Part shown: positions 4,311-63,450 of the stretch, in pieces | Numbering within the stretch: the first letter of the stretch is position 1 | Layout: the number at the start of each line of letters is the position of its first letter | NCBI GenBank assembly: GCA_034440635.1 | Contig: JAOTON010001483.1 | Location: 248,001 to 312,000, forward strand | DNA: 64,000 nt | Direction: 5' to 3' | From: Lepas anatifera | Taxonomy: Eukaryota > Arthropoda > Thecostraca > Lepadidae | Position numbers and translations under genes: made by a program | Notes under the pieces: model-generated | Told to the model about the DNA's origin: nothing | What the model saw: the letters and a program-made list of their open reading frames with translations, nothing else | The model's database searches: none

Positions 4311-5042
<732 letters not shown>

Positions 5043-15640: not shown

Positions 15641-15959
15641 TGATAAATCTCAATGTTATCGTTGCTCAGTTGCCGCTTAACACATGATTCTATATTAAAA
15701 GTGATAACTTTGGTGGTGTTGTTATGGGTCCAGCTTTCAAAAAAACTTCGACCATGGCCAATTGAAAATTTTCCTTTCTGCCAGTCATTTCCCGTATCGC
15801 CCGAGTGTCCAATCGGTCCTGTCCCTCCCAGTTTTTCGCGAATATTTGTGAGCTTGATTACACCAAAGAAACAAAACTTTGTAAAATGTCTAGTTGAATA
15901 ATTTTTTAAGCTTTCCAAAAAATTGTGTCAAGCCAGGTAACTGACTTATGACGTCATTA

Positions 15960-16845
15960 TCTAACAATCACACCGGAGAGGGGTCTGGCTCTAACGCACA
16001 CTGGGTACTGGTAAGCCCCCTCCTAAGATCTCGGAAACTAAGAGGCGTAGAAAAACGCCGGTTGGGGGGTGGGTGAGGGCTATGTTGGTCTAAATCATGA
16101 CTTATTTTCATTGACCTAGATCAATTTCTTCAAGGTCAAACGAGGTCATAAATTCAAATGGCCATGCTGGGTACCTATTGGGCAATAATGTGATTATGCG
16201 TGAAAAGGACGGGAATAAACTAAAAGCGGACCAGGGTCATTTATGGAAGATCGCAAATCATCTTTCTTGCTGTTTTGAGGTCAAGGCCATTCAAGGTAAT
16301 TAACCTATAAGGTCACAATATTGTATACTACCTATAATGTACACTATTACGGACGCTATAGCAACTGTTTGATGGGATATGATGATTGACCTTTACCAAT
16401 GACGTTTGACCCTGGCCTTTGACCTCGACCTTTACATTGAGGTACCTTGACTATGACGTCATAGTATAATATGCATCAGACCAAGTAACACTATATAACC
16501 GGAGGCACTGGGGTTAATGACATTGAAATGTTGATATTACCTTGACCTGTGACCTTTGAAATTGATCTTGACCTTCATTTGAGGCGAACTTAACATATCA
16601 TCCCGGTTATATGGCGTTATGACGTCACTTCTCGGTCTCCAATGCAAGTGAACTGGTCCGACCGCGCGATTCCGGCGATATCAAAATGCAGGTCTGACTT
16701 TGAAAGCCTATGAGTAAAACGAAATTCAACCGATGAAAAAAATGTCTTCGCAAATCGACAAGCCGTTAAATGCTTTCAAATGTCTACCTTCCATTTGTAT
16801 CAAATTATTCGTGATAATGTGATTTCGTTCCAGGTGTGAATGTTA
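15960..16845. mobile_element. nested second copy of the CACGCGC-family TTAA element
   Basis: Parallel along its length to the left half of the element at 12038: both carry AAGATCTCGGAAACTAAGAG and ACGCC..TTGG..GTGGGTG, then TCTTCAAGGTCAAACGAG, then TGACGTCA (16454-16461 here). Its degenerate ends (CTAACAATCACACC and, inverted, TTAACATTCACACC) support an independent insertion within the hAT element. Confidence 0.7.
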
Positions 16846-17893
16846 AAATGGTTGGACAGTATAAACATAAGTCGGGTGCACAAAAGCGTAAAACAAAGAA
16901 CATTCAAGACCGGGAGGCTGCTCGGGCAAAACTACCCAAACTTTCTTCATTTTTGAGGTAACCTTTGAATCTAGAATCGTCTTGTTAATTTTGCAAACTG
17001 TTATAAAATGACCCCGATCATATTTGCATTTAATCTCTAGCAACGTACGCGTTCACTTAAAGTAGTTTATATCACTACTATTTTTGGTACTATGCAAGCT
17101 ACCTTCATCTATCGACCGCAAAAATTAAAACCCCAATTTAAAACTAACTCGGAAAAGTGCAATGTATATAGTTTCTAGCAAAACGGTAAAGTAAGGTTGT
17201 AATTCCAATCCTTCTTTTCCTGGTCATTGCCTTCCTCGGCCAGGCCACCAACCGGATCTCATTTGCTAAAAGACCCTTCAGCATCCATCCCTCCTGCGTC
17301 GTGCGGGGCTGATCCCGTTGTACCTCCGGAGGAGAGCATTCGCGTGGACGACGAAGACGGTTAGTCCAATATCCTCACATACTTTGGCAGCTCGTTCAAA
17401 AGATTGGGTCTTCAGACTACTTTTTGGGCTAAATAGTGCAAATCATGAACAGTGACGAATAGCGCGTTAAAAATTGTTATATAACCTTTGCAGTCAGTTT
17501 TCGACAATAAACGGTCGAAAATATGTTTTTTCGGTCACATTTGCATTAAAAAAATACGGGCCCCCATCATGTACGGGCCCCCTTTCGAGCCGGGTGCCCC
17601 CCAATCGAAAACATAAAGTTGCGCCCCTGGTTATGACGTCACCACTCGGTCTTCAATGCAAGCTAACTGGTCCGACCGCGCGTTTATGGTGATCTCAAAA
17701 TGCAGGTCTGACTTTGAAAGCCTATAAGTCAAAAAAATTTCGGTCGATTTTCAAAAAGTCTTCACCAATCGACGCGCTATTAAATTCTGTTAAATGTGGC
17801 CACGTTTCGTTTTTCGGCTACAAGCGGTTCTCCGGTCACCTTGGAAAAATAGGTGGGGGGCCTCCGAGCCCCCCCCTCCAGTGCGCGTGTTAA

Positions 17894-18245
17894 GACGGTG
17901 CAAAAATCTCGCCCATATGCCCACCCACATGAACAAAATGTCTCGCACACCCGTCCTTCCTCAGTTTAACAGCGGGCACTCGTAGTACATAGTACATAGC
18001 AGCGGGCACATAGTATAAGCATCCTCATCACTAGACAGGCAGGTTTTATAATCCGCCTCGCGACTCCTCCCCTCCGGCGGTTCAACTCGGCGTCGGTGGT
18101 CACCAGCGTGACCTCTCACCTCTGTGCCCCGCGGGCAAGCGGCTCCCCGTGGATGGTGGCCGCTGATTGGTGGAGGCGCGTTCACTTGCATTGCGAGACA
18201 TTTAGTAGTAATGTCCTTATCAAAGTGATACTATCCTAAAGAATC
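17894..18245. other. no gene recognised
   Basis: Short spacer between the TTAA element and the next minisatellite-bearing repeat. Nothing identified. Confidence 0.4.
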
Positions 18246-20930
18246 AGTGGCGTAGCCAAGGGGGGTCCTTGGGGTCCGCAGACCCCCCTTGGGCTGACCT
18301 TATGCACTGGAAAACACGAGCATTTGGTCTCAGGGGCCCCCTGAGCTTGGTCTCAGGGGGCCCCTCCGAGCTCGATCTCAGGCCCCCCGAGGTTGGTCTC
18401 AAGGGACCTCCGAGCTTGGTCTCAGGGGGCCCCCAAGCTTGGTCTTACGAGCCCCCCCTTATCTTGGTCTCAGGGGTCCCCGAGCTCAGTCTCAGGGGGC
18501 CCTGAGCTCGGTCTCAGGGGCCCCCGAGCTTGGTCTCAGGGAGCGCCCAAGCTTGGTCTCAAGGGGCGTCCGAACTTGGTCTCAGGGGCCCCCCGAGCTT
18601 GGTCTCAGGGGGGCCCCCGAGCTTGGTCTCACGGGCTTCCCAAGCTTGATCTCAGGGGCCTCCGATCATCGGTATTGAGGGCTCCAGAGTACCGAACATT
18701 GATCTCGGGGGAGGGGGGCCCTGAGCCTGGTCTCAGGGCCCCCGAGCTTTGTCTCAGGGGGCCCCGCGAGCTTGGTCTCAAGGGACCTCCGAACTTGGTC
18801 TCAGGGGCCCCCCGAGCTTGGTCTCAGGAGGCCCTCCGAGTTTGGTCTCACGGGCCTCCTGAGCTTGGTCTCAGGGGGCCCCGAGCTCGGTCTCAGGGGC
18901 CCCAAGCTTGGTCTCAGGGGCCCCCGAGCTTGGTCTCAAGGGACCTCCGAACTTGGTCTCAGGAGCCCCCAAGTTTGGTCACAGGGGCTTTCCGACCCTG
19001 GTCTCAGGGACCCCCGATCATCGGTATCGAGGGCTCCAGAGTACCAAACATGGATCTCTGGGGGCCCCCTGAGCTCGGTCTCAGGGGCCCCGAGATTAAT
19101 CTCACGGGCCTTTCGATCTTGGTCTCAGAGGCCCCCCGAGCTTGGTCTCAGGGGTCCCCCGGGCTCGGTCTCAGGGGCCCCCGAGCTCGGTCTCAGGGCC
19201 TCCAGGTTGGGCTCAGGGGACCCCCAAATTTGGTCTCAGGGGCCCCTGATCATCGGTATCGAGACTAGGGAACCAGACTTTGATCTCGGGGGCCCCCTGA
19301 GCTCTGTCTCAAGGGACCCCCGAGCTTGGTCTCAGGGGCTCCCGAGCTTGGTCTCACGGACCTTTCGATCTTGGTCTCAGGCGGCCCCCTAGCTTGGTCT
19401 CAGGGACTCCCGAGCTTAGTCTCAGGGGCCTTTCTATCTTGGTCTCAGGGGGCCCTCCGAGTTTGGTCTCAGGGGCCCCCGAGCTTAGTCTCACGGGCCT
19501 TCCGAGCTTGGTCTCAGGGGAACCCGAGCTTGGTCTCACGGGCCTTTCGATCTTGGTCTTAGGGAGCTCCAGAGCTGGTCTCAGGGATCCCCCGAGCATT
19601 GGTATTGATGGCTCCGGAGCAGCGAACATTGATCTCGGGAAGTGGGGGGGGAAATATTGATCTCGGGGTGCCCCCCGACTATCGATATCGAGGGGACTTA
19701 TGAGCGAGGCACGAGAATTGGCCCCACGGCACCCAGAATTTGGTCTCAGGGGCCCAGGCTTGGACTCAGGGTCCCCGAGCATTGGTATCGAGGGGCTCCA
19801 GAGTACCGAGCATTAGTCTTGGGGGGCTCCGAATGTTGATCTGGGGGCCCCCCGAACAACGGTGTCGAGTTACTCCTGAGAAAAGCGCAATCATGGGCCT
19901 AAGGGTGCCCCCGAATCTGATCTAAGTGGAACCCCGAGCTTGGTCTTAGGAGCCCCGCGCATCAGTATCCAGGGGCTCCGGAGTATTGGCATCGGGGGGG
20001 AAGCAATGCTTTCAGGGGCCTCCAAGTGCTGCTCTCGGCAGGCCCCCGAATGTGTGGATGCAGTGGCGTAGCCTAGGGGTTCTAGGAGTCCGAGGAACCC
20101 CTTTGGGCCAATCTGAACCACTACACAGCATTCTCTGATCACGGGGCCCCCAGAATCAGTCTCAGAAGCCCCTGAAGATTCGTTCTCAGGACGTCCCGAG
20201 TCGGCCTCAGGGCCGCCCTGAGGGTCAGTCTCAAGACCCCCAAAAGTGATTTCAGGGGGTGCCTGAGAGTTAGTCTCAGAGGATCCCGAAAGTCGGTCTC
20301 AGGGGCCCCGAGAGTCGGTCTCAGGGGGCCGAGCTCGTCCCAGGGTCCCCCAGAGAGTGGTTCTCAGGGCCCCGCGACGGTCTATTTCAGGGGGCTCCAT
20401 GAGAGTCAGTCTCAGAGAACCCAAAGAGTCGGTCAAGGGGACCCCGAGAGTCAGTCTTAGAGGATCCCCGATATTCAGTCCCACAGTCTTACGGGCGTCT
20501 CTCTCAGGAGTCAATATTTACTTTTAGGTGGCCCCGAGAGTTAATCTGGGGGTCCGAGAGTTAGTCTCATTTGATCTGCAGAGTGCTGATCTCAGGAGGC
20601 CCCCGAGGGGTAATCTTGGGAACCCTCGAGATTTAGCCTGAGGTTGTGCCCCGCCCCCCCTAGTTGTTGCATAAGAGGCCCCGACAGTCAATCTCAGGGA
20701 GCACCTAAAAGTTAGTCTCAGAGTGGTCCCGGGAGATAGTCTCCGGTTCGTCCAAGAGCTAATTTTGGGGCTTTGAGAGTAATTTCCAGAGGTGTTCCCG
20801 AATTTTGGTCTCACGGCCCCGAGTTAGCCTTAGGCCTCTGAAGGCTAATCTGGGCTTCCGAGAGGCAGTCTCAGGAGTGCCGTGCCAAATACTCAGTCTC
20901 AGGGGTGCTTCCACGCCTCTCTATATCAAA
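18246..20930. repeat. two tandem hAT-like left ends, each followed by GGTCTCAGGGGCCCC minisatellite
   Basis: CAGTGGCGTAGCCAAGGGGG at 18246 and CAGTGGCGTAGCCTAGGGG near 20060 are direct copies of a hAT-like terminus. Each runs into degenerate 20-23 bp units close to GAGCTTGGTCTCAGGGGCCC. Every several hundred bases the array holds a longer spacer, CCGATCATCGGTATTGAGGG then CTCCAGAGTACCGAACATTG (about 18660, 19015, 19245), a sign of higher-order organisation. No matching right ends were found. The 291- and 206-codon frames here are not genes. Confidence 0.8.
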
Positions 20931-22004: not shown

Positions 22005-22351
22005 AATAATAATTATTAACACTTAAACCAACACAGCAGGCAGATGAACGCGTTTCGACAAAAATTGTCTTCTTCAGCATCTATGGTAGGAGGGATAAGG
22101 AACCCGTCATCAAGACATTCAGCAGTTTCATCGTTTGGATTTTTGTGCAAAATTATCGTGCGATAGAAATATAAAGGCACCGTTTTTTGAGGATATTCCA
22201 ATAATGCTTCTTGAATTATTCTAAAATGTATACAAGCAAGCTTCGATATGAGACAATCTAGCCTTATCACTTGTTTTAAATAATGTTCTATTTTTATTTT
22301 ATCATCATTATTGTTTTGTTATTATTATATAAAACGTTCTTCTCTCTTTGC

Positions 22352-24226
22352 TTAACCAACTCCTAATACAGCCGCAGATTTTGCCCATTTCATGAAGCCT
22401 GGCCTAAGATTAAAAGTATCATGTTTAGCTATATGTGCTGCTTCTGTAGCTTTCCTATTATCTTTGTTTTTACAAACTGCTATAATTTTAGCTCTATCCC
22501 AGTTTGGTAGATGATTTGTTTTCATGGAATGTATGACAAATGCACTGAATTCTGAGTTGTTTCGAAGGTCTCTTCTATGTTCTTTTAATCTTGTTTTTAG
22601 ACCCCGTCCTGTTTCACCTATGTACGCTTTCGTACACGACCCGCACGGCACCTGGTACACTACACTTTTTGGATCTGAGTCATCTGATCTTTCTTTTCTC
22701 GCTAAGATGCTACTAAGTTTTTTACCGGAACAAAATGCTACTTTGCAACCCGTTTCTTCAAGTTTGTTTGCAATAATTTCAGCTGGTTTGGAGTAAGGTA
22801 TCGTAACACATCGTATCTGTTCCTTTTTGTTGGATTTCGCGGATCGTTTTCTTATATCTAGAGCTTTCTTTTTCATATTAATCAGGAATCCTCTCGGATA
22901 TTTTAGCTTCGTGAACGAGGTCATAATATGTTCTATCTCTTCTTGTAGGTATTCATCACTACAAATACGGAAGGCCCTAAGAAAAAATCCTAATACTACT
23001 CCTCGCTTCACCCTATCACTGTGACCTGAGTAATAATGTACATAGCATTCCTTGTTCGTTGCCTTTCGATATACTTTGAATTTAACTTCGGCTCTCCTAA
23101 CAATCTCTGTGTCAAGGAAAGCTAGAGTTCTCTGATGTTCTTTTTCAATGGTGAACTGGATTTTCGGATCAACTGAGTTTAGTTGATTGAGTTTAGTTTC
23201 TAAGTCCATATCATTGGGGACTACAGCTAGTATGTCATCGACATATCGAGCCCAGATCACATTTGACCCCATTATCTCTAGGTAATGATGTTTTTCAAGC
23301 CATTCCATGTACAGGCATGCAGCAACTGGGCTTAACGGTGAACCCATCGCAAGACCACTGTGTTGAAAGTACTCATCCGAGTTGAAAGTGAAACCACCAA
23401 AATTCATGCACATTTTTAGCAATTTTAAATAGTCTTGTTTTGGTAAGGGCAGTTGGTCAGGGTTCATTTTCTTTGTTACGGATTCGATAGCTTTCATTGC
23501 CCCCTCTACTGAAACGTTCGTAAATAATGATTTAACATCAAAACTGGCTAGAAACTTATCTGAGAAGTCGATGTCCTTAATTTTCATCATGAGGTCATCA
23601 GTATTCTGGAGGTGTGCGTCGCTGACGGCACCCAACGAGCTTGATAGGGGTCTTGCTAATACTTTGGCGATACGATGAGGAGCACTGCCAATCCCTGACG
23701 TAATGGGACGCATCGGTATATTTGTTTTGTGAAGCTTTGGAAGACCGCGCATTCGTGGTGCGGTAGGAGCCTCTTCCAGGAGGTGAAGGAGTTGTTTTCC
23801 CTTTTCAAACTTTTGTAACAGTTTTCTTGTTTCTTGGTTGAATTTCTTACTGAGTTTTTCAATAAATCCAGAAGCTTTTTTCTCATAGGTATCTGTGTCT
23901 TGTAAGAGATTCTTCATTTTGTTTATGTATGCAGCCTTATCCAATATCACAACTCCTCCTCCTTTATCCGCTTGAGTAATGATTATTGACCGGTCATTGG
24001 CAAGGCTCTTCAACGCGTTCATGTATCTTCTAGGTAGTTTATCAGGTTCTTTGTCCGTTAGAGCCTTACAGCATAACAGAATGCCTTGTATAAATCCCTT
24101 CTCTATATCATCCTCGTAATATTTGTAGTTCCTACGGACATGATCTACATAATGATCTTTGTCTCTGCCTGTATCAAACTTGAAACCAAGAGATAACGCT
24201 TCTTTTTCATAATTACTGAGTGACCG
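22352..24226 (-). CDS. Penelope-like reverse transcriptase with GIY-YIG endonuclease (left arm)
   Basis: The open frame continues upstream of the first internal Met (24022) to the palindrome spacer, so the protein lacks its natural N-terminus. In order: RT fingers ADKGGGVVILD, then MRGLPKLHK (a Penelope signature), TSGIGSAPHRIAKVL, SFDVKSLFTNV (motif A), GLAMGSPLSPVAACLYME (motif B), ARYVDDILAVV (motif C, catalytic YVDD), then LAFLDTEIVRR and the linker. The C-terminus carries a GIY-YIG nuclease, VYQVPCGSCTKAYIGETGRG..TRLKEHRRDLRN. Such elements copy their RNA into chromosomes, with the nuclease nicking the target. The frame is uninterrupted and may have been active recently. Confidence 0.9.
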   Translation of the reverse strand, partial: RSLSNYEKEALSLGFKFDTGRDKDHYVDHVRRNYKYYEDDIEKGFIQGILLCCKALTDKEPDKLPRRYMNALKSLANDRSIIITQADKGGGVVILDKAAYINKMKNLLQDTDTYEKKASGFIEKLSKKFNQETRKLLQKFEKGKQLLHLLEEAPTAPRMRGLPKLHKTNIPMRPITSGIGSAPHRIAKVLARPLSSSLGAVSDAHLQNTDDLMMKIKDIDFSDKFLASFDVKSLFTNVSVEGAMKAIESVTKKMNPDQLPLPKQDYLKLLKMCMNFGGFTFNSDEYFQHSGLAMGSPLSPVAACLYMEWLEKHHYLEIMGSNVIWARYVDDILAVVPNDMDLETKLNQLNSVDPKIQFTIEKEHQRTLAFLDTEIVRRAEVKFKVYRKATNKECYVHYYSGHSDRVKRGVVLGFFLRAFRICSDEYLQEEIEHIMTSFTKLKYPRGFLINMKKKALDIRKRSAKSNKKEQIRCVTIPYSKPAEIIANKLEETGCKVAFCSGKKLSSILARKERSDDSDPKSVVYQVPCGSCTKAYIGETGRGLKTRLKEHRRDLRNNSEFSAFVIHSMKTNHLPNWDRAKIIAVCKNKDNRKATEAAHIAKHDTFNLRPGFMKWAKSAAVLGVG

Positions 24227-24238
24227 TAAGAAGCCGGG

Positions 24239-26143
24239 GACGTTGACATAGTTACAAATTTATCAACACGGTCACTCAGTAATTATGAAAAAGAAGCGTT
24301 ATCTCTTGGTTTCAAGTTTGATACAGGCAGAGACAAAGATCATTATGTAGATCATGTCCGTAGGAACTACAAATATTACGAGGATGATATAGAGGAGGGA
24401 TTTATACAAGGCATTCTGATATGCTGTAAGGCTCTAACGGACAAAGAACCTGATAAACTACCTAGAAGATACATGAACGCGTTTAAGAGCCTTGCCAATG
24501 ACCGGTCAAAAATCATTATTCAAGCGGATAAAGGAGGAGGAGTTGTGATATTGGATAAGGCTGCATACATAAACAAAATGAAGAATCTCTTACAAGACAC
24601 AGATACCTATGAGAAAAAAGCTTCTGGATTTATTGAAAAACTCAGTAAGAAATTCAACCAAGAAACAAGAAAACTGTTACAAAAGTTTGAAAAGGGAAAA
24701 CAACTCCTTCACCTTCTGGAAGAGGCTCCTACCGCACCACGAATGCGCGGTCTTCCAAAGCTTCACAAAACAAATATACCGATGCGTCCCATTACGTCAG
24801 GGATTGGCAGTGCTCCTCATCGTATCGCCAAAGTATTAGCAAGACCCCTATCAAGCTCGTTGGGTGCCGTCAGCGACGCACACCTCCAGAATACTGATGA
24901 CCTCATGATGAAAATTAAGGACATCGACTTCTCAGATAAGTTTCTAGCCAGTTTTGATGTTAAGTCATTATTTACGAACGTTTCAGTAGAGGGGGCAATG
25001 AAAGATATCGAATCCGTAACAAAGAACATGAACCCTGACCAACTGCCCTTACCAAAACAAGACTATTTAAAATTGCTAAAAATGTGCATGAATTTTGGGG
25101 GTTTCACTTTCAACTCGGATGAGTACTTTCAACACAGTGTTCTTGCGATGGGTTCACCGTTAAGCCCAGTTGCTGCATGCCTGTACATGGAATGGCTTGA
25201 AAAACATCATTACCTAGAGATAATGGGGTCAAATGTGATCTGGGCTCGATATGTCGATGACATATTAGTTGTAGTCCCCAATGATATGGACTTAGAAACT
25301 AAACTCAATCAACTAAACTCAGTTGATTCGAAAATCCAGTTCACCATTGAAAAAGAACATCAGAGAACTCTTGCTTTCCTTGACACAGAGATTGTTAGGA
25401 GTGCCGAAGTTAAATTCAAAGTATATCGAAAGCCAACGAACAAGGAATGCTATGTACATTATTACTCAGGTCACAGTGATAGGGTGAAGCGAGGAGTAGT
25501 ATTAGGATTTTTTCTTAGGGCCTTCCGTATTTGTAGTGATGAATACCTACAAGAAGAGATAGAACATATTATGACCTCGTTCACGAAGCTAAAATATCCG
25601 AGAGGATTCCTGATTAATATGAAAAAGAAAGCTCTAGATATAAGAAAACGATCCGCGAAATCCAACAAAAAGGAACAGATACGATGTGTTACGATACCTT
25701 ACTCCAAACCAGCTGAAATTATTGCAAACAAACTTGAAGAAACGGGTTGCAAAGTAGCATTTTGTTCCGGTAAAAAACTTAGTAGCATCTTAGCGAGAAA
25801 AGAAAGATCAGATGACTCAGATCCAAAAAGTGTAGTGTACCAGGTGCCGTGCGGGTCGTGTACGAAAGCGTACATAGGTGAAACAGGACGGGGTCTAAAA
25901 ACAAGATTAAAAGAACATAGAAGAGACCTTCGAAACAACTCAGAATTCAGTGCATTTGTCATACATTCCATGAAAACAAATCATCTACCAAACTGGGATA
26001 GAGCTAAAATTATAGCAGTTTGTAAAAACAAAGATAATAGGAAAGCTACAGAAGCAGCACATATAGCTAAACATGATACTTTTAATCTTAGGCCAGGCTT
26101 CATGAAATGGGCAAAATCTGCGGCTGTATTAGGAGTTGGTTAA
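24239..26143 (+). CDS. Penelope-like reverse transcriptase with GIY-YIG endonuclease (right arm)
   Basis: About 634 codons are open from the spacer to TAA at 26141. The frame starts DVDIVTNLSTRSLSNYEKEA, slightly longer than the left arm because the spacer belongs to this copy, and then repeats the same domains. The apparent Met at 24473 is internal. Differences from the left arm include HSVLAMGSP for HSGLAMGSP in motif B and YVDDILVVV for YVDDILAVV; the catalytic aspartates are intact. The Gly-to-Val change just before LAMGSP could affect activity. No promoter or N-terminal region is present, so expression would depend on surrounding sequence. Confidence 0.9.
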   Translation, partial: DVDIVTNLSTRSLSNYEKEALSLGFKFDTGRDKDHYVDHVRRNYKYYEDDIEEGFIQGILICCKALTDKEPDKLPRRYMNAFKSLANDRSKIIIQADKGGGVVILDKAAYINKMKNLLQDTDTYEKKASGFIEKLSKKFNQETRKLLQKFEKGKQLLHLLEEAPTAPRMRGLPKLHKTNIPMRPITSGIGSAPHRIAKVLARPLSSSLGAVSDAHLQNTDDLMMKIKDIDFSDKFLASFDVKSLFTNVSVEGAMKDIESVTKNMNPDQLPLPKQDYLKLLKMCMNFGGFTFNSDEYFQHSVLAMGSPLSPVAACLYMEWLEKHHYLEIMGSNVIWARYVDDILVVVPNDMDLETKLNQLNSVDSKIQFTIEKEHQRTLAFLDTEIVRSAEVKFKVYRKPTNKECYVHYYSGHSDRVKRGVVLGFFLRAFRICSDEYLQEEIEHIMTSFTKLKYPRGFLINMKKKALDIRKRSAKSNKKEQIRCVTIPYSKPAEIIANKLEETGCKVAFCSGKKLSSILARKERSDDSDPKSVVYQVPCGSCTKAYIGETGRGLKTRLKEHRRDLRNNSEFSAFVIHSMKTNHLPNWDRAKIIAVCKNKDNRKATEAAHIAKHDTFNLRPGFMKWAKSAAVLGVG

Positions 26144-26402
26144 GCAAAGAGAGAAGAACGTTTTATATAATAATAACAAAACAATAATGATGATAAAATA
26201 AAAATAGAACATTATTTAAAACAAGTGATAAGGCTGGATTGTCTCATATCAAAGCCTGCTTGTATACATTTTAGAATAATTCAAGAAGCATTATTGGAAT
26301 ATCCTCAAAAACGGTGCCTTTATATTTCTATCGCACGATAATTTTGCACAAAAATCCAAACGATGAAACTGCTGAATGTCTTGATGACGGGTTCCTTATC
26401 CC

Positions 26403-26460
26403 TCCTACCATAGATGCTGAAGAAGACAATTTTTGTCGAAACGCGTTCATCTGCCTGCTG
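26403..26460 (+). ncRNA. possible hammerhead-like motif in Penelope 3' region
   Basis: GCTGAAGAAGACAA-TTTTTGTCGAAACGCG fits CUGANGA, a stem-II hairpin (GACAA paired with UUGUC) and GAAA, with one extra A before the stem. The same motif is inverted in the left arm near 22034-22090. Hammerhead motifs are known in Penelope-like terminal repeats. I could not confirm stems I and III, so self-cleavage is only a suggestion. Confidence 0.35.
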
Positions 26461-26513
26461 TGTTGGTTTAAGTGTTAATATCTGTCAACCGCTGTTATAC
26501 AATAATAATTATT

Positions 26514-42560: not shown

Positions 42561-45500
42561 GTACATTATCACCACCATCAGCGCCGGTCATTGAGGCTCA
42601 TTATTAAGAATTCTATAATTGCAAAAGAATACTTCTCTGATATATTTTTAAGCACATGTTTGTTTAGAGGAACTTCCGTTATACATTTAAAGGTTGGACA
42701 TATAGTTTTGTTCCAAATTTCAGGTGCAGAGCATGCCAGAGCAAATTTCCTATAATTTGTTGTAGCCTGAGGTATTTCAAAGTGTCTAATCAATCTCGTA
42801 TTAGTTGTTCTGTATTTCTGAAAAAGAGACGATATCACATCTGGCATTGTACCATCCAATACTTTCGACAATATAATAACTTCTTGTTCAGAGACTAGGT
42901 CAGGGAATTTAAGTATTTTTAATTTTAGAAACAGTTCATTTGTGTGGTAATACTAGGGTTTTTTGTCGATGATTCGAATAGCACGTTTCTGTAATTTGAT
43001 GATCTTATCGAGAGTGGATTCGTAATTACTACCCCAAACCATTGCACAATAATTTAGATGGGGCAATATAAAGGCGTTATACAAATGAGTGAGTTCGTGC
43101 GATGATAGGAAATACTTGGCTCTGCTCATGATTCCTAAATTTCTACTTAAAGATACATGAAGGATGTGCGAATTCCACTTAAGCTTTTCGTCAATATAAA
43201 CGCCAAGATACTTTACAGTTTCTTCACGTTTAAGCTGCATTCCATTTAGTCTTACATCAAAATTTCTAATGTTAGCGCTAGAATAAAGCTGATAATGAGA
43301 TTTTGAAGCATTTAGAGACAAACGATTGGACTGAAATCATTTTGACACTTCTGGAAGAACTTTATGGATTTTTGACTGTACACTTCTCACATCATCCCCC
43401 GAGATTATAATAGCAGTATCATCTGCAAATAAGTAAAATCTAGTTTCAATGGACACTCGATACAGATCATTAATGTATATAATAAATAATAGTGGTCCTA
43501 GTATTGATCCCTGTGGTACTCCCGTCCTTAATTGTTTTGCATGAGAGATGACCCCCTTAATTTTAGTCCTCTGAAATCTGTTAGTTAGATATGAAGAAAT
43601 AATATTATACAATTTACCCTTAATACCAATGTGATTTTATTTTTGCAATAGTATGCCTAGACTAACCGTATCGAATGCTTTTTTCAAGTCTAAATAAATT
43701 CCACATGATATGTTACCCTTTTCTAAAGATTTTGTTACGCTCTCGTAAAGATGTACCAGAGGCATGTACGTACTATGCTTTTTTCTAAAGCCGAACTGAA
43801 ATGAATGTAAGATGTTATTTTCGATCAAATAATTAGAGATATATTGGTATAGTACCCGTTCCAAAATTTTGGAGAAGATGGGTAACAATGAAATGGGTCT
43901 ATAGTTCGTAAATCTATCTTCTTCACCTGATTTAAATATAGGGACCACTACTGCTTCTTTTAACATCTTTGGGAATATACCTTTCTTAAGACATAGGTTG
44001 AAAAAATAAGTCAAATTACAAAGACAACTTTTATATGTACGATGCAGAATCTTTGTGCTAATTCAATCAATGCCACCACCCACTTGTTTTAGTGATTTGA
44101 TGATATTTTCTATGTATTGTTGGTTTGTTGAAAGTTCATCCGTAAATGGTGGGTGTGAGTAATCTTCGAGATATTCTATAGGATTTATGTTCGAAACAGG
44201 AATGTCTTTTTCAAGTGTTGATCCAATTGTAGCAAAAAAATCGTTAGATCCATTCGCTATGTCATCATCTTTGTGCTCCCCGGAACTATTATCAAAAAAC
44301 ACAGAGGGATATGATGTACTTTTCACAGTGTTTCGATTCATAATCTCATCCAAAAGTTTCCACGTTTGTTTTCCATCCCTCTTATGAGCTTCAAACTCAG
44401 ACATATAGTATTTCCTCTTACTTTCCTTAATAATTTTAGTCAGGTAGTTTCTACAGGGTGTTTCAAAAAGAATGATATTTTTAAATGTTCAGTAAAGTAC
44501 TACAAATCCTTCAAATCCGTCCACAAAACACTCATTTTAATGGTAAATTGTAGGAAATTTTTTATATAAATATGTTTCATTTGCATCAAATGTTTTCTCT
44601 CGTCTTAAATGTACTCGAAAAATGGTGCAAGAAACATAATATATGCCCGCTTATATTTGAGAAAACGGAACTTGCAACACTCTAAAAGGCTTCAGCACAC
44701 ACAAATGGCACGTGAGCATGCACATTAAAAAGCAAAAGTCTCAGTAATACTACAAGTTAAAAGTTTTTGGCTCAAGCTCCGTATAGCTCATTGGTTTACC
44801 TTCCATATGAATGACTGGATGCGGCGGACACAGCGCAAAAGACCCCACTGTTCACCGCAGAACAAGGGGCATGGACCAATTGGGAATTGCTTGCTTGAAC
44901 CCGAGCTTTCCTAAGCTTGAGAGGTGTGTTTTTTAGAATTAATTTCCAGAGGCAATGTGCATGTGGACTGAGACGTACCATAGTGACGATATTATGTTTG
45001 CAGTGCCATTGGCGCGATACTTGTCACGTGATACGCACGTGATTTCTACGAACATTTTCGATGAAGGCAAGATAGACAGAATTTTTCAAGTCAATTTTAA
45101 GACTACTTTTTACTAGCAAAAATATCAAAACAGCTATCAAAATACGAATAATCGTAAATGTCCCAAAATCATCTTTCGATTGATATGTAAATCATACCAC
45201 AACAACCTCTTTATAACCGCATTATGATCCATTAAAAAATATCATTCTTTATGAAACACCCTGTATAAAGTTTATATTTAATTTCATGTTGTCTCAGCAC
45301 AGGATCATTTTCACTATTTGTTTTTTTCCTATTTTTGTGTGAAATATACCTATGATACAGTTTGTTCTTATAATTTATAGACGCTAGTATCCCTGGAGAA
45401 ATCCACGGTTTAATTGGAGTTTTCCTTCTACATGGTGTAAATGATTTCGAAAATTTATCAATTCCAGTTTTATAAGTATTTATAAGAACTTCACAAGCCT

Positions 45501-46440
45501 CATCAGGATCATTGATGTTTTGAAAATTGGCTAATTCCGAAACCATATAATCATTGAGTTCTTTTTCTTTGGACCAGTCTAAAGTCTTTATCATAATTGC
45601 CGTTTTTGTATTAACTAATCTTTTTTTAAAGTTATATATATATATAGGTAAATGATCAGATATATCAGTTACAATTATACCTGAATGTGCAACTTGATCT
45701 GTATTACTGACAAAAAAGTTATCCAATAAGGTATGAGAATTTGATGCAAACCTAGTTGCCCTTGAGACCAGAGGCAAAAGGTTGTATGATAACATCAGGG
45801 TTAGAAACTTATGTGCGTGTTTGTCATCTTTAGTCTTTAATAAATCATAGTTGAAGTCCCCTGCCAATACATAGTCATTTTTACACGGATTTATTGAGTC
45901 CAAAACCTTTTCAAAATGTTCCAGAAAGCTATTGCTGTCCTGGTTTGGAGGTTTATAAACCTCACCAACCACGAAATGTTTCCCATGTTTATCTCCTGCG
46001 TTCTCTACTTCTACAAAAGTGGATTCTATTTGTTCAAACTCGAGATCTGCCCTTCTTCTAGAGGTATATTTTTTGTTCACATATATTGCTGTTCCTCCCC
46101 CTGATTATTTTCCCGACTCGATGAATATAGTTCATATTCATCTATATCAAAATATTTTTCGATTTCTTTTTTCAGCCATGTCTTCGCGATGCAAATAATA
46201 GACCAAGTTATGCCAGATTGTGATAGAAATGTTTTGATTTCATCAAACTTGTTTTTGATTGATCGCGCATTTATATGGATAATTTGAAAACTATTTGATA
46301 TATTCATTTTAATGGGAGGTACATAGTATTCACATTTATTTGTTATTTCAATAAATTGCTGGTTTAAATCAGAAGTATCTTCAAGTACTATATCTTTAAA
46401 AGGATTCTCAAACATTTCAGAGAACATCACGACAGATATC
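42561..46440 (-). pseudogene. nearly full-length LINE (endonuclease plus reverse transcriptase), split by a MITE
   Basis: Read right to left. An APE-type endonuclease begins FQIIHINARSIKNKFDEI, with GGGTAIYV after a one-base frameshift near 46095, then VLAGDFNYDLL and DISDHLPI. Next come the RT: FKSGEEDRFTNYRPISLLP, then FGFRKKHSTY, YLDLKKAFDTV (motif A), GVPQGSILGPLLFIIYINDL (motif B) and LFADDTAI (motif C, FADD). After that SLNASKSHYQLY and KYLGVYIDEKLKWN, and a C-terminal tail. Lesions: the frameshift, in-frame stops near 44060, 43638, 43337 and 42953, and an 810-bp MITE at 44454-45263. It resembles jockey/CR1-type LINEs. The 3' end abuts AC-rich simple sequence. Confidence 0.9.
44454..45263. 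mobile_element. 810-bp TA-flanked MITE inside the LINE
   Basis: The ends CAGGGTGTTTCAAAAAGAAT and, inverted, CAGGGTGTTTCATAAAGAAT (about 30-bp terminal repeat) are flanked by TA on both sides, as expected of Tc1/mariner-type transposition. LINE coding text resumes on each side (YKL to the right, NYLTKIIKESKRKYY to the left). No transposase is recognisable. Confidence 0.87.
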
Positions 46441-55330: not shown

Positions 55331-55423
55331 AAGAAGGGGGGCCTTCGAACCTCTACAAACTCCATGGTATTTTCTTTGAAGCACGGCATGGGAGGACTTA
55401 GCGAAGCACTCTCCGTAGTGCAG
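55331..55423 (+). CDS. TPH: TPH exon 2
   Basis: Acceptor TTATTCCCAG, donor CAG-GTCAGT. 31 codons, phase 0 to 0, encoding the start of the ACT domain ([20 protein letters not shown]). Confidence 0.85.
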
Positions 55424-58361
55424 GTCAGTAAGGCTTATTTTCCCATGCACCCATTGGAGATACGATACTGTTAAATTGATATGTAGCTTGTTCGCGTTCT
55501 GGTGACGCTTCTCTGAAAACGTGATTTGCCAGACTCGTTATCAAGTTTCCTCTTTTGTGGCATCCAATATCAAATCAATGTGAAAGTGAGAGAAGTTTTG
55601 AGTAAAGTTAGTGGTAAACAGATTCGAAACTAGCACTGGCTCAGCCAAACTAGTTCTCCCAATCGTTCCTTCTGCTGGGACGCAAAACGCCCTAGACAGC
55701 AGTATATGTAGAGTGATATGCCGTGGTATCCGCCAGGATCATGGAATCAATGTTGTTTACATCGAAAGTCGAAAATCACAGCGAAGAAACTCGGATTTCG
55801 ACATCTACATGGACGTAGAGTGTGGTGAAAAGGTGAGAGCTAACGGGGTGAAAAGGTGCCCAGGGGCGTAGCCAAAGGGGGGCGAAAGGGACAGCCACCC
55901 CTTCCCTCTGAGGGCCCGAAGGGCCCCCTGAGTACACGGGCCGTGCGAAGCGCGGCTCGCCTGCACTATGCACTGTGGCCAAATTTGAAGTTTTATACCA
56001 GACAGGGCCCTCTTCAGCACTCTATTCTGTAACACGCAGGGCCCTTTTTTACCCATCAGGGCCCTCTTGGCGCTGTCGCACGGGCCCTTTTCGGGTGAAA
56101 TACAGACGATTGCATGTGTTCTGCTTTAGGCCTAGCGTTTAGTGTTGTTTTATTTCGCTGTTGTCTCCACTTGGTCCATGCATTTTGAGATTGTTGTTCT
56201 TTCAAATTATGGTCAGTTCCGGGCCAACTTTTTTGTATAGCCCTTACACTTTCTATTTGTGTTTAGCCTTCCTGAAAAGCCTATTTCTTTTCCGAATGTT
56301 TCGCTTTAATTCGCAGCTCATCCAAACTTTGTCGTTCTGTCTTAGGTAAACTGATTTACTAGGAATGGATTCCTCCGCAGCATGGAGTAAAGTTTCGGAG
56401 AATATTTTAGTTGCTCTAGGTGAGAGCTAGAGAGAGGGTGAGAGCTGGCGAGAAAATGAGGCACGGCGAGAGGACAAGTGCTGGTAAGAAGGTTGGGGAG
56501 AAGATGGGAGCTGGTGAGAGACAAGAGGTGGTTGATACAAGGGGAGGGCTGGTATGGCTCAAGTCCCCTCGCTGACATTTCTGAGTAACAATATTAATCA
56601 CTTAGTAAGAGCTTATCCGAGGAGGAGGCAGGGTAAGGCTGAGCCCCCTCCCCTGCAAGTCTGCATTCTGCCAGTTTGAGAAGGTGTGCTTTGCAGAGTG
56701 AATAGTTGAAGCTCAGAGATGCCATAGATAAGACTCGTGAGAAGTGGGCTTCATTTTTCTCGTTTGGAGGTTAAATGCATTGTCCAGCTCTGAAATAATA
56801 CAAATGCGTTGTACTGTAGTAGATCGCTAAATGAGGCCCTCTGCTAACCTGTGCTTGCTCATTGACAGGCCATGCAATCGCTGGCAACAGACTTGTCCAA
56901 GTCTCTGGAGGCGACGCAGCTGCAGTGAGTGGAGATTTATGCGATACATATCTGCAGTAAACAGGTTTTGTGCAGTACATAAAACACAATTTACCATAGT
57001 AACAGTGGCTAGTAGTCTGTATGACTGGAAATGGGGAGAGGGGATGGGATTTTAGAACTGGATGAAATGGATATGATTTCTCCGGTTTTATTTCAAAGTG
57101 ACTGGAGACTTCTTTTGTTTTGTTTTTCTTTCTACAGGGTTAAATGAAATGGGATAGGAATGCTTATAACAGACATCTTCTGGAGCGGAATAGGGGCGGT
57201 AAACACCAGCATTTAGATACAAAAGCATTCTCTGCGATACCATCAGAACCCTGGGTGTGAAACTGTCGCAAGAAAACTACGTTGCTTGCGGTTTTAAGCA
57301 GATAGTTTTGTCAGCTTTTTCTGTGCTTGAAACTTTTGTGATGACTGAATTACTGCATGCAGTGTGGTTTTTAAATGACAGACGTCGATATTCAAGAGAT
57401 GACAATGTGAAAACAGGTGTGACTTTACAATCCATGGCGCTGCACCTTTGCTCAGGTCCTTTGATGCCGGCGGGGAGCTCCCAAAGAGAAGCATGAGCGT
57501 CCAGAGCAGTTTCGGTGAGGACGCTGTACTATGTTTTCTTAATAGAATATGATGCCTAAAATTTCCAGTCATTAGTGGTGGATATATTTGGGTAAAAATG
57601 CAGGAAAATCGAGTGGTGAATACAGAATCTGCCTACACACCGTTCTTCTAAGTGGATGCTCTTGCTGCCATCGTGATTGCTTGGACCATATCTTTGCCAC
57701 AGTTGTGTAAGTTAGTTTAACAATATTTGCTGCTGAAACTTACAAAGGAAGCATAAACCAGAACACTGGGTGTTCTACATTATAGTATAACATCAGAAAA
57801 TAATCAGTCCCCGACGACGACATTTCTGACGGAGGCACACGCGTTTTTTTTGTACCAAAGTGCATTCTGAGAAGGTAATGGCTTGGTTTTCCAGAAATTT
57901 CTTTAAAGCTTTGGTTGTTTTGGTGCTTTCTCCTGTATTTAGCCAAACATGTTTCACAGAAGGCGTCTGGAATATAGAAATACCTGGAACATTGCAAAAG
58001 GAACTGATGTCTGCTGTCATGCTCGTTTGTTTTTGCATGACTTTGCCCTAATAGATTTTCTGGAAATAGCTATCTCAGAAATAATGACTTCCTCAAGAGT
58101 ATTCTATTGTGTGTCCAGATTTCGAGGACATTCCATGGTTTCCACGCAAGATATCTGATCTGGACCGGGCGCAAAAGACCCTGATGTACGGATCTGACCT
58201 CGACGCCGACCACCCGGTAAGGTCAAGGTCGGATCATAATGAGAGTTTTGCTGAGGGAGCTATGTAGTCACAACATGTTTGAAGAGCATCGGAGTGGTCT
58301 TGGCAATAAGTATCTTTATCCTACATTTTTTCACCCGACAGTGGAGGAAGCAGAGAGAAGT

Positions 58362-58408
<47 letters not shown>

Positions 58409-61400
58409 GGATGAGGGAGAGAGAAGGGGATGAGGGAGAGAGAAAATATATGGTTGATGTTCAATTTTTTCGAATAGTTGGTAATTGCTACTCAGCTTTT
58501 CAATTCTCAACTAAGCCGATTAATATTTTAGCAGCATGCCCATATTTGCCCTGCCCCTCCCTTAGGCACATGACTGAGGCAAACTAAGCACTTTGGGTGG
58601 TTTTCTTCAAAGTTGACCAGATCGAAAAGGTGTGAGTCTGTGAAAAGCTCAATTATTTCAGCATTCATTACCTCGTAAGTTTGGTACTTTCCCTCTTTTT
58701 CCGCGGGTCTGTCTCTTCCAACCGGAACAACATTATTTATCTGTATCTATAGGCCCTGTGTGTCTGGATAATGCGTTGATGCCAGCGATAACCAATATCC
58801 AAAGAGGCAACAGTACGCCATTCTAATGCGTTACCTATCTTCTACAGGGTTTCAAAGATAGCGTCTATCGCAAGCGAAGGAGGCACTTCTCGGACATCGC
58901 CATGAAGTACAGACAGTGAGCAATTAAATGTCGTTTGTTTATGCTTGCTGACATGAGAGTCCCCATTGGAAAAAAGTAAAAAATTGGGGGGGAGTATCAG
59001 TAAGTCTTCCACCTGCTGCTGACAGTATAATTTTTCCTTTAAAACAAAAAACATCGAATTTGGTTTCAGTATTGCCTTCCGCACAGGCTGGTTCCACAAG
59101 TTTTTATTTGTACTCAATTTGACTGAAGCTGGTTATTTTGTATGAAAATAGTGGGGAGAGTCATGCCCAATTTTAGCCTGCGCTACCCTGACGCATATGG
59201 CTTCTCAATATCTAGCGACGAAGGCGCATTTTCAGGTTATGATCAGTAACCATACCTACCAACATTGGTGTTGTTTATTTTTGTCTGTATACTTTCTGGT
59301 TTTGATGAGCTAGCACCTCAGCGTCAGAGCCGCCAATTTTTCCGATAAACTTCTAAAAAACTTTGTAATGATCAAGTAAAAACACAGTTCGGAGAAATGA
59401 ATAACCCGCCATAACTTTCATCACACGAAATACGCTCAACAAAGTCGTCGGACACTTCGAACACATTCTTGTCTATTGCAAAAATAACTCGTAGGCTATA
59501 GCATGTCATGATCACAGCAGTCCATTTATTTTATGGCTTGCTGTTTGGTAATTGTTCTGCCGTTTTCAGCGGTCAAACTATCCCACGTGTGGAGTATACC
59601 GGGGAGGAAACCCGCACATGGTGAGTACATCGAGTATACCGGGGAGGAAACCCACAAATGGTGAGTACATCGAGTATACCGGGGAGGAAACCCGCAAATG
59701 GTGAGTACATCGAGTATACCGGGGAGGAAACCCGCACATGGTGAGTACATCGAGTATACCGGGGAGGCAACCCACAAATGGTGAGTACATCGAGTATACC
59801 GGGGAGGAAACTCACAAATGGTGAGTACATCGAGTATACCGGGGAGGAAACCCGCACATGGTGAGTACATCGAGTATACCGGGGAGGAAACCCGCAAATG
59901 GTGAGTACATCGAGTATACCGGGGAGGAAACCCGCACATGGTGAGTACATCGAGTATACCGGGGAGGAAACCCACAAATGGTGAGTACGTTGAGTATACC
60001 GGGGAGGAAACCTGCATAAGGTGAGTACATCGAGTATACCGGGAGGAAACCCGCACATGGTGAGTACGTTGAGTATACGGGAGGAAACCCGCACATGGTG
60101 AGTACATCGAGTATACCGGGGAGGAAACCCACAAATGGTGAGTACATCGAGTATACCGGGGAGGAAACCCGCACATGGTGAGTACGTTGAGTATACCGGG
60201 GAGGAAACCCGCACATGGTGAGTACATCGAGTATACCGGGGAGGAAACCCGCACATGGTGAGTACATCGAGTATACCGGGGAGGAAACCCACAAATGGTG
60301 AGTACATCGAGTATACCGGGGAGGAAACCCGCACATGGTGAGTACGTTGAGTATACCGGGGAGGAAACCCGCACATGGTGAGTACATCGAGTATACCGGG
60401 GAGGAAACCCGCAGCTGGTAAGAAGGCTAAAGAGGAGACACGTACATGGTGAGTACGTTGAGGAGAAGGCAAGTAGAGCTGCACGAAGGCACGTGCTAAA
60501 ATGCACTTGGTGAGCATCTTAGCCGTGATGATATTTGCCACTCTGATGAGAAGCACCTGACGCCGTAGAAAGATAACTGAAAATCCTGGGACAGTGCCTA
60601 AAGCTCACCAGTTTTAAATGCAAAAAAGCACTGCATCAATCTTCCTGGCACACCTTTAAATATAACTGTCCTAGACTGGCTCAGCGCACGATTCACTTAT
60701 TTGTTTAATACACACTGCATTTGTCAACTTTGCTCGGAAATGCTGCCTGGCTTGACGGAAATAAGGCCAAGTTGTCTGGTGCTCTCGCGCCCGGTAACAT
60801 AGTTACGGAAACTCTGACGAGCTCTCCTTCCAATGATTAGCTGTAGTGCAGTAACGAGACCAAGATCTGATCTAGTTTTCCATAATGAACGTCAAAATGT
60901 GGCTCCACGTCAAAACTGTGCTTGGATACCAGTTGTGTCTCCGACTTCAAACTTTCCCATGTTTCAAGCTTTACTGTTAGACTGTCTTGATCAACCATTA
61001 CCGAATAAAGCGTGATGGGCTTGAAACAAATAAGTGTGCACGTTTGGAGTCTTTGTCTGCTAATTCCATGTTAATTGCTTAAATATATATTTAAAATAAA
61101 TTGCTTGTTCGTGAGCGTTTTGAGCTATAGGCGGAGCCTTTAGTCCTGGAGTACATAAAACTCCAATGTGTGTAGTATAGTGGATCTTTAAGGACGAGAG
61201 CCCATATTTATTTCTCTGGATAAAATAGGAAACGATTAACAAAAACGCTGGTATCGGTAAACGGTATTGTAAAATTCAGTGCCACTTTCACCATTTTTAT
61301 ATATTTTTCCCACGGATACGTAAAACCAAGGAGCTTAAAAAGTCACTGAACGGTGGAGAATTCGGAAGCTCCCGGAATTCTCGCTCCCTGTAACATTTAT

Positions 61401-62537
61401 TTGTATTTTTTCGAAATTGTCGGGACTGCTCCTGAGATACGGGTTCCTGCTCTCAATGTAGTTTTACTGTAACGAACATTCCCTGGGTGTTAGACTTACA
61501 CTTGAAGTGTGTTTCTTGACGATGTGGACGGACTTGTCTCTTATGAATATGCATCGATTCCTTCGCGTTAGATATATTTCAATAAACTCACTCTAAGTCT
61601 ACACACAAAACCTCGCTCAATTCCAGTAGAAATGATAGGACGACTCTGGATCTGTTTCCAGGGGCGTTGTTTTTGAGCAGCTGAGTGCCTTGTACGAGAC
61701 GTACGCCTGTCAGGAGTACCTGGAGAACTTCCACCACCTGAAACGCTACTGGGGCTACAGGCGCGACAACATACCTCAGCTGGCGGACTTGGACAACTAC
61801 CTCAGACGTGAGTGGAGCGTCGGCTCTCGCGGTGGTGCATTGGTTAGCACGCTCGCTTTCCACGCGTCCGACCCGGGTTGAAGGCTAAGGGGTTCTCTAA
61901 TTAAGGGGAATCCGACTCCCTAAAACCTTTTCAACAGGAGATAAGTTGGCAACGCGATGTGACTCTGGCAGTTGGTGGGTCGATACGCACCAAAACTCGT
62001 TTGGCACGGATCAGAGGTCAGAAAAAGTATACATTTTCCCCAACTGAGACCAATTTTTTACCCTAGATAAAAATATGTTACCAGACAAAAATGGCTCTTG
62101 CAGTCTAACGAAAGAGACAAGAATTATTCGTAAGCTCAAAGTAAGTAGATTAGGTACCAACTTGTGATATCATACAATATCGAAGAGAACGTTTTGGTGC
62201 TTCAAATCTCAACTTCAAAAAGAACCATTCAACTTCACTGTAAACATCGAGCTTTGGATAGAAAAAAACAAGCATCTTGTGACCACATCTTACGCCCGGT
62301 AACGTGTTTTTGTTTTTGCTTTTTGACTTTAGCTTGTCCCCCTAAGCTTACCGGCTAGATCCGCCACTGGTTACAAGTGCCACGACCCATCTCTTTTCCA
62401 GAGAAGACGGGCTTCCAGCTACGGCCCGTGGCGGGCTACCTCTCCCCGCGGGATTTTCTGGCTGCCCTAGCCTTCAGGGTTTTCTCCTGCACCCAGTACA
62501 TCCGCCACAGTTCTGACCCGCTCTACACACCCGAGCC
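55331..62537 (+). CDS. TPH: tryptophan hydroxylase (partial, exons 2-10 as numbered here)
   Basis: TPH converts L-tryptophan to 5-hydroxytryptophan using iron, tetrahydrobiopterin and O2, the rate-limiting step of serotonin synthesis, in the cytosol of neurons and enterochromaffin-like cells. Nine exons with GT/AG borders join in frame. First comes an ACT-type regulatory domain ([19 protein letters not shown], then [11 protein letters not shown], a possible kinase site). A variable linker leads to the catalytic domain from [10 protein letters not shown] to the pterin-binding [13 protein letters not shown] and the active-site YTPEP. IESRKS.RRNS and DVECG distinguish TPH from phenylalanine and tyrosine hydroxylases. 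The HELLGH iron ligands and tetramerisation helix lie beyond the window, and the first exon is not found. Exons ending at 59620 and 62537 run into splice-donor minisatellites. Confidence 0.93.
55737..55832 (+). CDS. TPH: TPH exon 3
   Basis: Acceptor CCGCCAG (weak pyrimidine tract), donor AAG-GTGAGA. 32 codons, phase 0 to 0: [20 protein letters not shown] then [12 protein letters not shown], the TPH-diagnostic block. Confidence 0.93.
55861..56095 (+). mobile_element. left part of the CAGGGGCGTAGCC hAT-type MITE in TPH intron 3
   Basis: Parallel to 48428-48665 (CCCAGGGGCGTAGCCAAAGG.., GGGCCGTGCGAAGCGCGGCT, GACAGGGCCCTCTTCAGCAC). The right end is missing. Confidence 0.8.
56869..56924 (+). CDS. 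TPH: TPH exon 4
   Basis: Acceptor ATTGACAG, donor CTGCA-GTGAGT. 56 nt, phase 0 to 2: [18 protein letters not shown], matching the helix of the regulatory domain by position. Low sequence similarity, but the phases join perfectly. Confidence 0.75.
57456..57514 (+). CDS. TPH: TPH exon 5 (variable linker)
   Basis: Acceptor TTTGCTCAG, donor TTCG-GTGAGG. 59 nt joining phase 2 to phase 1, encoding [19 protein letters not shown], a Ser-rich linker (KRSMS could be a kinase site). Supported mainly by phase and position. Confidence 0.75.
58119..58216 (+). CDS. TPH: TPH exon 6
   Basis: Acceptor GTGTCCAG, donor CCCG-GTAAGG. Encodes [20 protein letters not shown] then [13 protein letters not shown], the start of the catalytic domain. 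Phase 1 to 0. Confidence 0.96.
58361..58444. repeat. (GA)n microsatellite in TPH intron 6
   Basis: About 22 GA units, then degenerate GAGGGAGAGAGAA copies. Confidence 0.9.
58848..58915 (+). CDS. TPH: TPH exon 7
   Basis: Acceptor TTCTACAG, donor AGACA-GTGAGC. 68 nt, phase 0 to 2: [20 protein letters not shown] then YR. Strong family match. Confidence 0.96.
59570..59620 (+). CDS. TPH: TPH exon 8
   Basis: Acceptor CCGTTTTCAG, donor ACATG-GTGAGTAC. 51 nt. Joined to exon 7 it gives [18 protein letters not shown] (W completed by exon 9), matching human TPH2 PIPRVEYTEEETKTW. Its last 29 nt plus 11 intron bases are the repeat unit of the minisatellite that follows. Confidence 0.96.
59588..60460 (+). 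repeat. splice-donor minisatellite 1 (40-bp unit, about 21 copies)
   Basis: Unit: GTGAGTACATCGAGTATACC then GGGGAGGAAACCCGCACATG, i.e. the exon 8 end joined to its own donor. GTGAGTAC recurs at 59621, then every 40 bp to 60021, at 60060 and 60098 (one- and two-base deletions), then every 40 bp to 60378, and once more at 60449. One copy has GTAAGA (60417). Common variants are CCCGCAAATG/CCCACAAATG and ACGTTGAG for ACATCGAG. The 190-327-codon minus-strand frames are by-products. Confidence 0.96.
61662..61807 (+). CDS. TPH: TPH exon 9
   Basis: Acceptor CTGTTTCCAG, donor AGAC-GTGAGT. Encodes [20 protein letters not shown], then [20 protein letters not shown], then ADLDNYLR. Phase 2 to 1. Family text is clear (GYR.DNIPQL.D...L). 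Confidence 0.96.
61831..61995 (+). mobile_element. SINE in TPH intron 9
   Basis: tRNA-like head GGTGGTGCATTGGTTAGCAC (box-A region), TCCGACCCGGGTTGAAGGC (box-B region), then the family's CCTTTTCAACAGGAG body and a GGGTCGATACGCACC tail. It starts 23 bp after the exon 9 donor. Confidence 0.8.
62402..62537 (+). CDS. TPH: TPH exon 10
   Basis: Acceptor CTCTTTTCCAG, donor GAGCC-GTGAGTAC. 136 nt, phase 1 to 2: [20 protein letters not shown], then [20 protein letters not shown], then YTPE(P). It carries the pterin-binding loop and the active-site TPEP segment. The next exon (HELLGH) is outside the window. The last 17 nt of the exon recur in the following minisatellite. Confidence 0.97.
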
Positions 62538-63450
62538 GTGAGTACTGGCCCACTCTGTTTACACATCCGAGTCGTGAATACCGGCCCACCTCTATCTACA
62601 CACCCGAGCCGTGAGTACTGGCCCACCTCTATCTACACACCCGAGCCGTGAGTACTGGCCCGCCTCTATCTACACACCCGAGCCGTGAGTACCGGCCCAC
62701 CTCTATCTACACACCCGAGCCGTGAGTACCGGCCCACCTCTATCTACACACCCGAGCCGTGAGTACCGGCCCACCTCTATCTCCACACCCGGGCCGTCAG
62801 TACTGACCCGCCTCTATCTACCCTCCCGAGCCGTGAGTACTGGCCCAGCTCTATCTACACACCCGAGCCGTGAGTACTGACCCGCCTCTATCTACACACC
62901 CGAGCCGTGAGTACTGGCCCGCCTCTATCTACACGCCCGAGCCGTGAGTACCGGCCCACCTCTATCTCCACACCCGGGCCGTCAGTACTGACCCGCCTCT
63001 ATCTACCCTCCCGAGCCGTGAGTACTGGCCCAGCTCTATCTACACGCCCGAGCCGTGAGTACCGGCCCACCTCTATCTACACACCCGATCCGTGAGTACC
63101 GGCCCGCCTCTATCTACACGCCCGATCCGTGAGTACCGGCCCACCTCTATCTACTCACCCGCGCCGTGAGTACTGACCCGCCTCTATCTACACACCCGAG
63201 CCGTGAGTACTGGCCCGCCTCTATCTACACACCCGATCCGTGAGTACCGGCCCACCTCTATCTACTCACCCGCGCCGTGAGTACTGGCCCACCTATATCT
63301 ACACACCCGAGCCTTGAGTACTGGTCCACCTCTATCTACACACCCGAGCCGTGAGTACTGGCCCGCCTCTATCTACACACCCGATCCGTGAGTACCGGCC
63401 CACCTCTATCTACTCACCCGCGCCGTGAGTACTGGCCCACCTATATCACT
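62521..63450 (+). repeat. splice-donor minisatellite 2 (37-bp unit, about 25 copies)
   Basis: Unit: GTGAGTACTGGCCCACCTCT then ATCTACACACCCGAGCC, the end of exon 10 joined to its donor. Variant units reading AGTACTGACCCGCCTC are closer to the exon text AGTTCTGACCCGCTC. Most copies keep GTGAGTAC; a few have GTCAGT (near 62790 and 62970) and one GTGAATA (62574). A block of about five units containing the GTCAGT variant appears twice, about 180 bp apart, showing later higher-order duplication. Confidence 0.95.

Follow-up and report, generated by a model that had tools for sequence, protein, structure and literature searches.

Introduction

In amphioxus, the alcohol dehydrogenase gene Adh3 and the globin genes BflGb6 and BflGb9 carry mirages, tandem duplications of an exon-intron boundary that resemble minisatellites and present splice signals in many copies, as described in the available text of the original report (PMC3087553). 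That introns of other animals can arise by tandem duplication has likewise been published, in work cited in the accessible parts of two papers (PMC3087553, PMC2812944). Here we describe two tandem arrays in a stretch of 64,000 nucleotides of DNA, referred to below as the window. Each array repeats the end of a coding exon together with its splice donor, and both lie in one gene, for tryptophan hydroxylase (TPH). Judged from the DNA alone, we read these arrays as mirages by anatomy, in an arthropod and twice in the same gene.

Results

Part of the gene lies on the plus strand, from 55.3 kb to the end of the window. Exons 7-10 and the 98-nt exon that precedes them are consecutive, join in frame and have AG/GT borders throughout (Table 1). 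Exon 8 is flanked by ttcag on its 5' side and gtgagtac on its 3' side, and it aligns without gaps to TPH relatives; its number is nominal, since the gene's 5' part was recovered incompletely. The joined peptide scores 338 bits against the NCBIfam TPH profile TIGR01270, 300 against the PAH model and 255 against the TH model, with all three scores under the full-length cut-offs for this partial gene, and TPH2 and TPH1 top its matches among solved structures (PDB). The gene is thus a tryptophan hydroxylase gene, matched better by TPH than by PAH or TH models.

The closest TPH proteins in the full-length protein search are those of Amphibalanus amphitrite and Pollicipes pollicipes, and the top identity in the first protein search was to Pollicipes TPH. 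Catalytic-domain identity is 78.8% to Amphibalanus and 79.4% to Pollicipes (170 aligned columns), compared with 61.2-74.7% to 17 other hand-chosen sequences, two of them PAH (163-170 columns). A tree splits the window TPH, Amphibalanus and Pollicipes from these 17 with support 100, and within the barnacle group places the window TPH outside the Amphibalanus and Pollicipes pair (support 85). Protein identities and tree therefore place the window in the barnacle lineage (Thecostraca), and give no support to an origin in amphioxus, which a mirage might have led one to expect. The Amphibalanus TPH model (P0121) has tandem peptide repeats, TAANHSAGTE and variants of it, at its C-terminal end, so that tandem repeats touch the coding end of TPH in Amphibalanus too. 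The TPH model of Pollicipes shows a disturbance where exons 10 and 11 meet, but it is labelled low quality, and we drew nothing from it.

Table 1. Exons of the TPH gene, junction arrays and related features, in window coordinates.
Feature	Position	Strand	Basis
Three upstream TPH exons	ends at 55423, 55832, 57514	+	Recognised by peptides
Possible beginner: 12-nt exact copy of the junction GGTGAAAAG/GTG, 23 bp downstream, at a TPH donor (exon end 55832)	55824-55858	+	Score reached by 1/300 shuffles; 13 junctions tested
TPH exon before exon 7, 98 nt	58119-58216	+	AG/GT borders, in-frame join
TPH exon 7, 68 nt	58848-58915	+	AG/GT borders, in-frame join
TPH exon 8, 51 nt; last 29 nt are the exon part of array 1 unit 1	59570-59620	+	AG/GT borders, in-frame join, alignment with relatives
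Array 1, 40-bp units of 29 nt exon 8 end and 11 nt intron start	59592-60413	+	TRF; unit and donor lists
Decayed array-1-like pieces, donors at 60449 (GTGAGTAC) and 60510 (GTGAGCAT)	60414-60520	+	Donor list; sequence reading
TPH exon 9, 146 nt	61662-61807	+	AG/GT borders, in-frame join
TPH exon 10, 136 nt; last 25 nt are the exon part of array 2 unit 1	62402-62537	+	In-frame join; unit list
Array 2, exon 10 end and GTGAGTA, 25 units	62513-63447	+	TRF (62522-63447); unit and donor lists

Array 1 starts inside exon 8, whose last 29 nt form the exon part of its first unit. TRF reports a period of 40, 20.6 copies and 93% matches. Eighteen of the 20 measurable units are 40 bp long, with one of 39 and one of 38, and seven units, the exon's own copy included, match the consensus exactly. 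The donor reads GTGAGTAC in 20 of the 21 units and GTAAGAAG in the 21st. When the exon 8 end and its donor were compared with the next 392 nt, the match scored 74, against a maximum of 24 among 300 letter shuffles. These results bear out the anatomy proposed in the earlier note: a 40-bp unit made of 29 nt of exon end and 11 nt of intron, a ladder of about 21 donors of nearly one sequence, and an array that begins within an exon joined in frame to exons 7 and 9. That note had also suggested slippage or unequal exchange as the origin, which the recurrence of some multi-unit blocks makes the natural reading; units 13-16 and 17-20, for instance, carry by our reading the same order of variants but for a 2-nt gap. 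Taken over all units, order did not depart significantly from shuffles (1556/2000 and 291/2000 as good), so the evidence for block expansion consists of these few visible repeats. We found no inverted repeats around array 1, and its RNA, the only one of the two folded, was on par with shuffles (z 0.27); we therefore rejected a hairpin or inverted-repeat function.

A second array, absent from the earlier note, has the same structure at the exon 10 donor. Its unit joins the terminal 25 nt of exon 10 to 7 nt (GTGAGTA); in most of the later units the exon part is extended by 5 nt. Unit lengths run, in order, 32 bp (the exon copy), 36 bp (a divergent unit) and then 37 bp 23 times. The step from 32 bp in the exon copy to 36 and 37 bp in the later units indicates that expansion occurred on the intron side, and the 5 extra nt of the 37-bp units would shift the reading frame if located in the exon. 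GTGAGTAC occupies 21 of the 25 donor positions, and the others hold GTGAATAC, GTCAGTAC (twice) and TTGAGTAC. The exon 10 end with its donor scores 56 against the following intron (maximum of 300 shuffles, 24).

In the whole window, GTGAGTAC occurs at 42 sites (20 in array 1, one in its decayed tail and 21 in array 2) and at none on the other strand. The units of the two arrays have only the donor 8-mer in common, which indicates that the arrays arose separately; on the same ground we rejected a shared seed for both. Purine content is 64% in array 1 and 39% in array 2, an opposite composition that counters a single strand-composition driver.

Self-match was tested at 13 junctions, eight donors and five acceptors. 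None of the five acceptors matched adjoining sequence beyond shuffles, and of the six donors other than those of exons 8 and 10, four were at background, one scored 24 (1/300 shuffles) and one 19 (6/300). The exact junction copy listed as a possible beginner in Table 1 is only suggestive, as an incipient mirage or as the edge of a mobile element. A rough placement estimate, based on nine hand-picked TRF arrays and eight donors, puts the chance of at least two arrays at donors at 0.0009; the other seven arrays have no known exon link, so arrays are also simply common in this region. Within the window, GGT[AG]AG forms clusters in array 1 alone, and no added cluster was seen for GTGAGT, GTAAGT or GTGAGTAC; the GGT[AG]AG pattern misses array 2, which has C before its donors, and ladders of other donor types may escape it. 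Rfam and tRNA scans were empty.

The window contains other repeats as well. Minisatellites with periods of about 20-45 bp (TRF), several of them large, lie at 13005-20480, where no gene was identified, and show that this genome region readily forms such arrays. At 4842-5041 the dinucleotide CA is repeated 100 times without a mismatch. Two reverse-transcriptase genes of 556 aa stand head to head at 22014-26480; they differ from each other 15 times over 1671 nt and lie in inverted arms that are at least 2187 bp long and 99% alike. Their relatives, among the best 120 of 785 matches, include two Amphibalanus proteins, the only ones of these 120 to carry an organism name. Pieces of a LINE-like element with endonuclease and reverse-transcriptase matches lie on the minus strand at 43637-46080.

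Introns 8 and 10 are both phase 2 and open with GTGA, so a retained donor reads NNG TGA and places a stop directly after the junction codon. Such an in-frame stop precedes every later donor, 22 listed at array 1 and 24 positions at array 2 (one without GT). It follows for any phase-2 GTGA intron and needs no adaptation. Because use of a later donor adds NNG TGA, mis-spliced messages should enter nonsense-mediated decay and not yield altered protein. In array 1, U1 pairing is equal in 19 of the 20 GTGAGTAC units and better in one: the first donor is equalled by 18 units after it and by the outlier at 60449, and it is surpassed by unit 11 (-12.1 kcal/mol for unit 11, -10.6 for the first donor). 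Equal use of equal donors would leave correct messages at 1/20 and 1/21 at the two sites, or about 0.24% jointly. Either position decides donor choice, or the gene yields little protein. The question raised in the earlier note, how a donor is chosen among identical copies, is thereby sharpened, with all later donors lying beyond an immediate stop and U1 not favouring the first. In mammals, SRSF1 favours the intron-proximal of competing donors and hnRNP A1 the intron-distal, according to the available part of one paper (PMC5585400); under an SRSF1-type preference, a late copy would be chosen at this locus and a stop incurred. For amphioxus mirages, the accessible report describes regular splicing (PMC3087553).

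The low yield expected from equal donor use, and the retention of GTGAGTAC in 20/21 and 21/25 donors, would also fit ladders that are functional, either by binding many U1 particles or as poison donors that set the level of tryptophan hydroxylase. We consider such a function improbable, since a column-by-column comparison gives no sign of selection on the donor copies of arrays 1 and 2: varying columns number 0 of 8 in the donor vs 8 of 32 elsewhere in array 1 (18 full-length units; hypergeometric 0.14), and 2 of 7 vs 11 of 30 in array 2 (23 units of 37 bp). U1 pairing is already stronger at exon 8 than at the other four exons scored, and the shuffle-like folding of array 1 RNA also argues against a function. 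We hold the donor copies to be tolerated intron sequence, and moderately doubt a regulatory role.

By PAH numbering, exons 8 and 9 would cover the same residues as human PAH exon 6. Together the two exons measure 197 nt (51 and 146 nt) and human PAH exon 6 about 197 bp, as given in the accessible text of one paper (PMC12483855), a comparison in which intron 8 seems extra. Array 1 might then have given rise to intron 8, with a coding stretch duplicated and its copies turned into intron as modelled for the amphioxus globins, but several observations make this quite improbable. In P0103, a TPH model from the lobster Homarus, precisely the 17 residues encoded by exon 8 are missing (one of 29 picked proteins, and noticed beforehand), so the exon 8/9 intron appears to be present in a decapod; the flanking leucine in P0103 would fit split codons. 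The exon 9 acceptor region is unlike array 1 (400/500 shuffles as good), although old decayed copies could be missed by this comparison, and the rest of intron 8 is also unlike the array (203/300 shuffles as good). Exon 10, moreover, has an array too, and some incomplete TPH models from other animals stop at the border of this exon (3 of 29 picked proteins, plus P0001). With the intron apparently present in a decapod, and with the acceptor end and the rest of the intron unlike the unit, the arrays probably grew on introns older than themselves.

Tandem arrays are often mis-sized in assemblies and the exact array lengths here are uncertain, but it is highly improbable that read joining inflated or invented the arrays, given that their units vary by substitutions and small indels, that two deviating units stand at the exon in array 2 and that decayed pieces end array 1.

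Discussion

We consider it likely that both arrays are mirage-type minisatellites, in which junction-spanning segments were duplicated and expanded, the first donor is spliced and the copies are tolerated. Short segments of the exon-intron junction would have been tandemly duplicated, separately at exon 8 and exon 10, and would have expanded afterwards, with slippage of several units at a time or unequal exchange as the probable mechanism. In both arrays the exon-proximal donor, which is the first to be transcribed, would be the one spliced, and the later copies would therefore be ordinary intron sequence. Duplication across a donor may be tolerated because the original exon and its own donor stay intact upstream.

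The locus amounts to a natural competition experiment, in which some 20 donors of identical sequence, spaced at 40 bp, face one acceptor and every wrong choice is marked by a stop. TPH messages could reveal whether position or transcription order sets the choice of 5' splice site. More tentatively, 5' splice sites in this barnacle lineage might be hot spots of tandem amplification (two, perhaps three, of the eight visible donors and none of five acceptors), with a strict rule that the first-transcribed donor wins making the ladders harmless; we regard this combined proposal as rather doubtful.

Like amphioxus mirages, the barnacle TPH units hold exon sequence together with adjoining intron sequence, and the in-frame joins and the alignment indicate that the copied boundary is the end of a genuine coding exon. 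Unlike the amphioxus cases, they lie in an arthropod of the barnacle lineage and affect a single gene at two donors, one array having 21 units of about 40 bp and the other 25 of about 37 bp. The available text on amphioxus gives globin mirage units of 150-160 bp, with BflGb6 haplotypes of 6 and 3 units, at the acceptor, and Adh3 units of 10-72 bp (PMC3087553). The same text reports both splicing and instability for the amphioxus mirages, and the TPH arrays are known from one sequence. In human segmental-duplication genes, expansion of a minisatellite within a gene can create or change introns, a likeness to the TPH arrays; the internal tandem repeats there differ in averaging four units of 30 bp, and the accessible part of the paper describes no ladder of donors at one exon (PMC2812944). 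Intron 3 of the abalone TSSK1-like gene resembles the TPH introns in holding a tandem array, which is length-variable and has a 27-bp unit, and differs in that the available account does not speak of its unit as containing a donor or any exon sequence (PMC6905558). In the open-licence literature, as far as its accessible text goes, we found no donor ladder of this kind outside amphioxus. The TPH arrays would thus extend mirages from cephalochordates to an arthropod, and would allow their recurrence and mutational cause to be compared.
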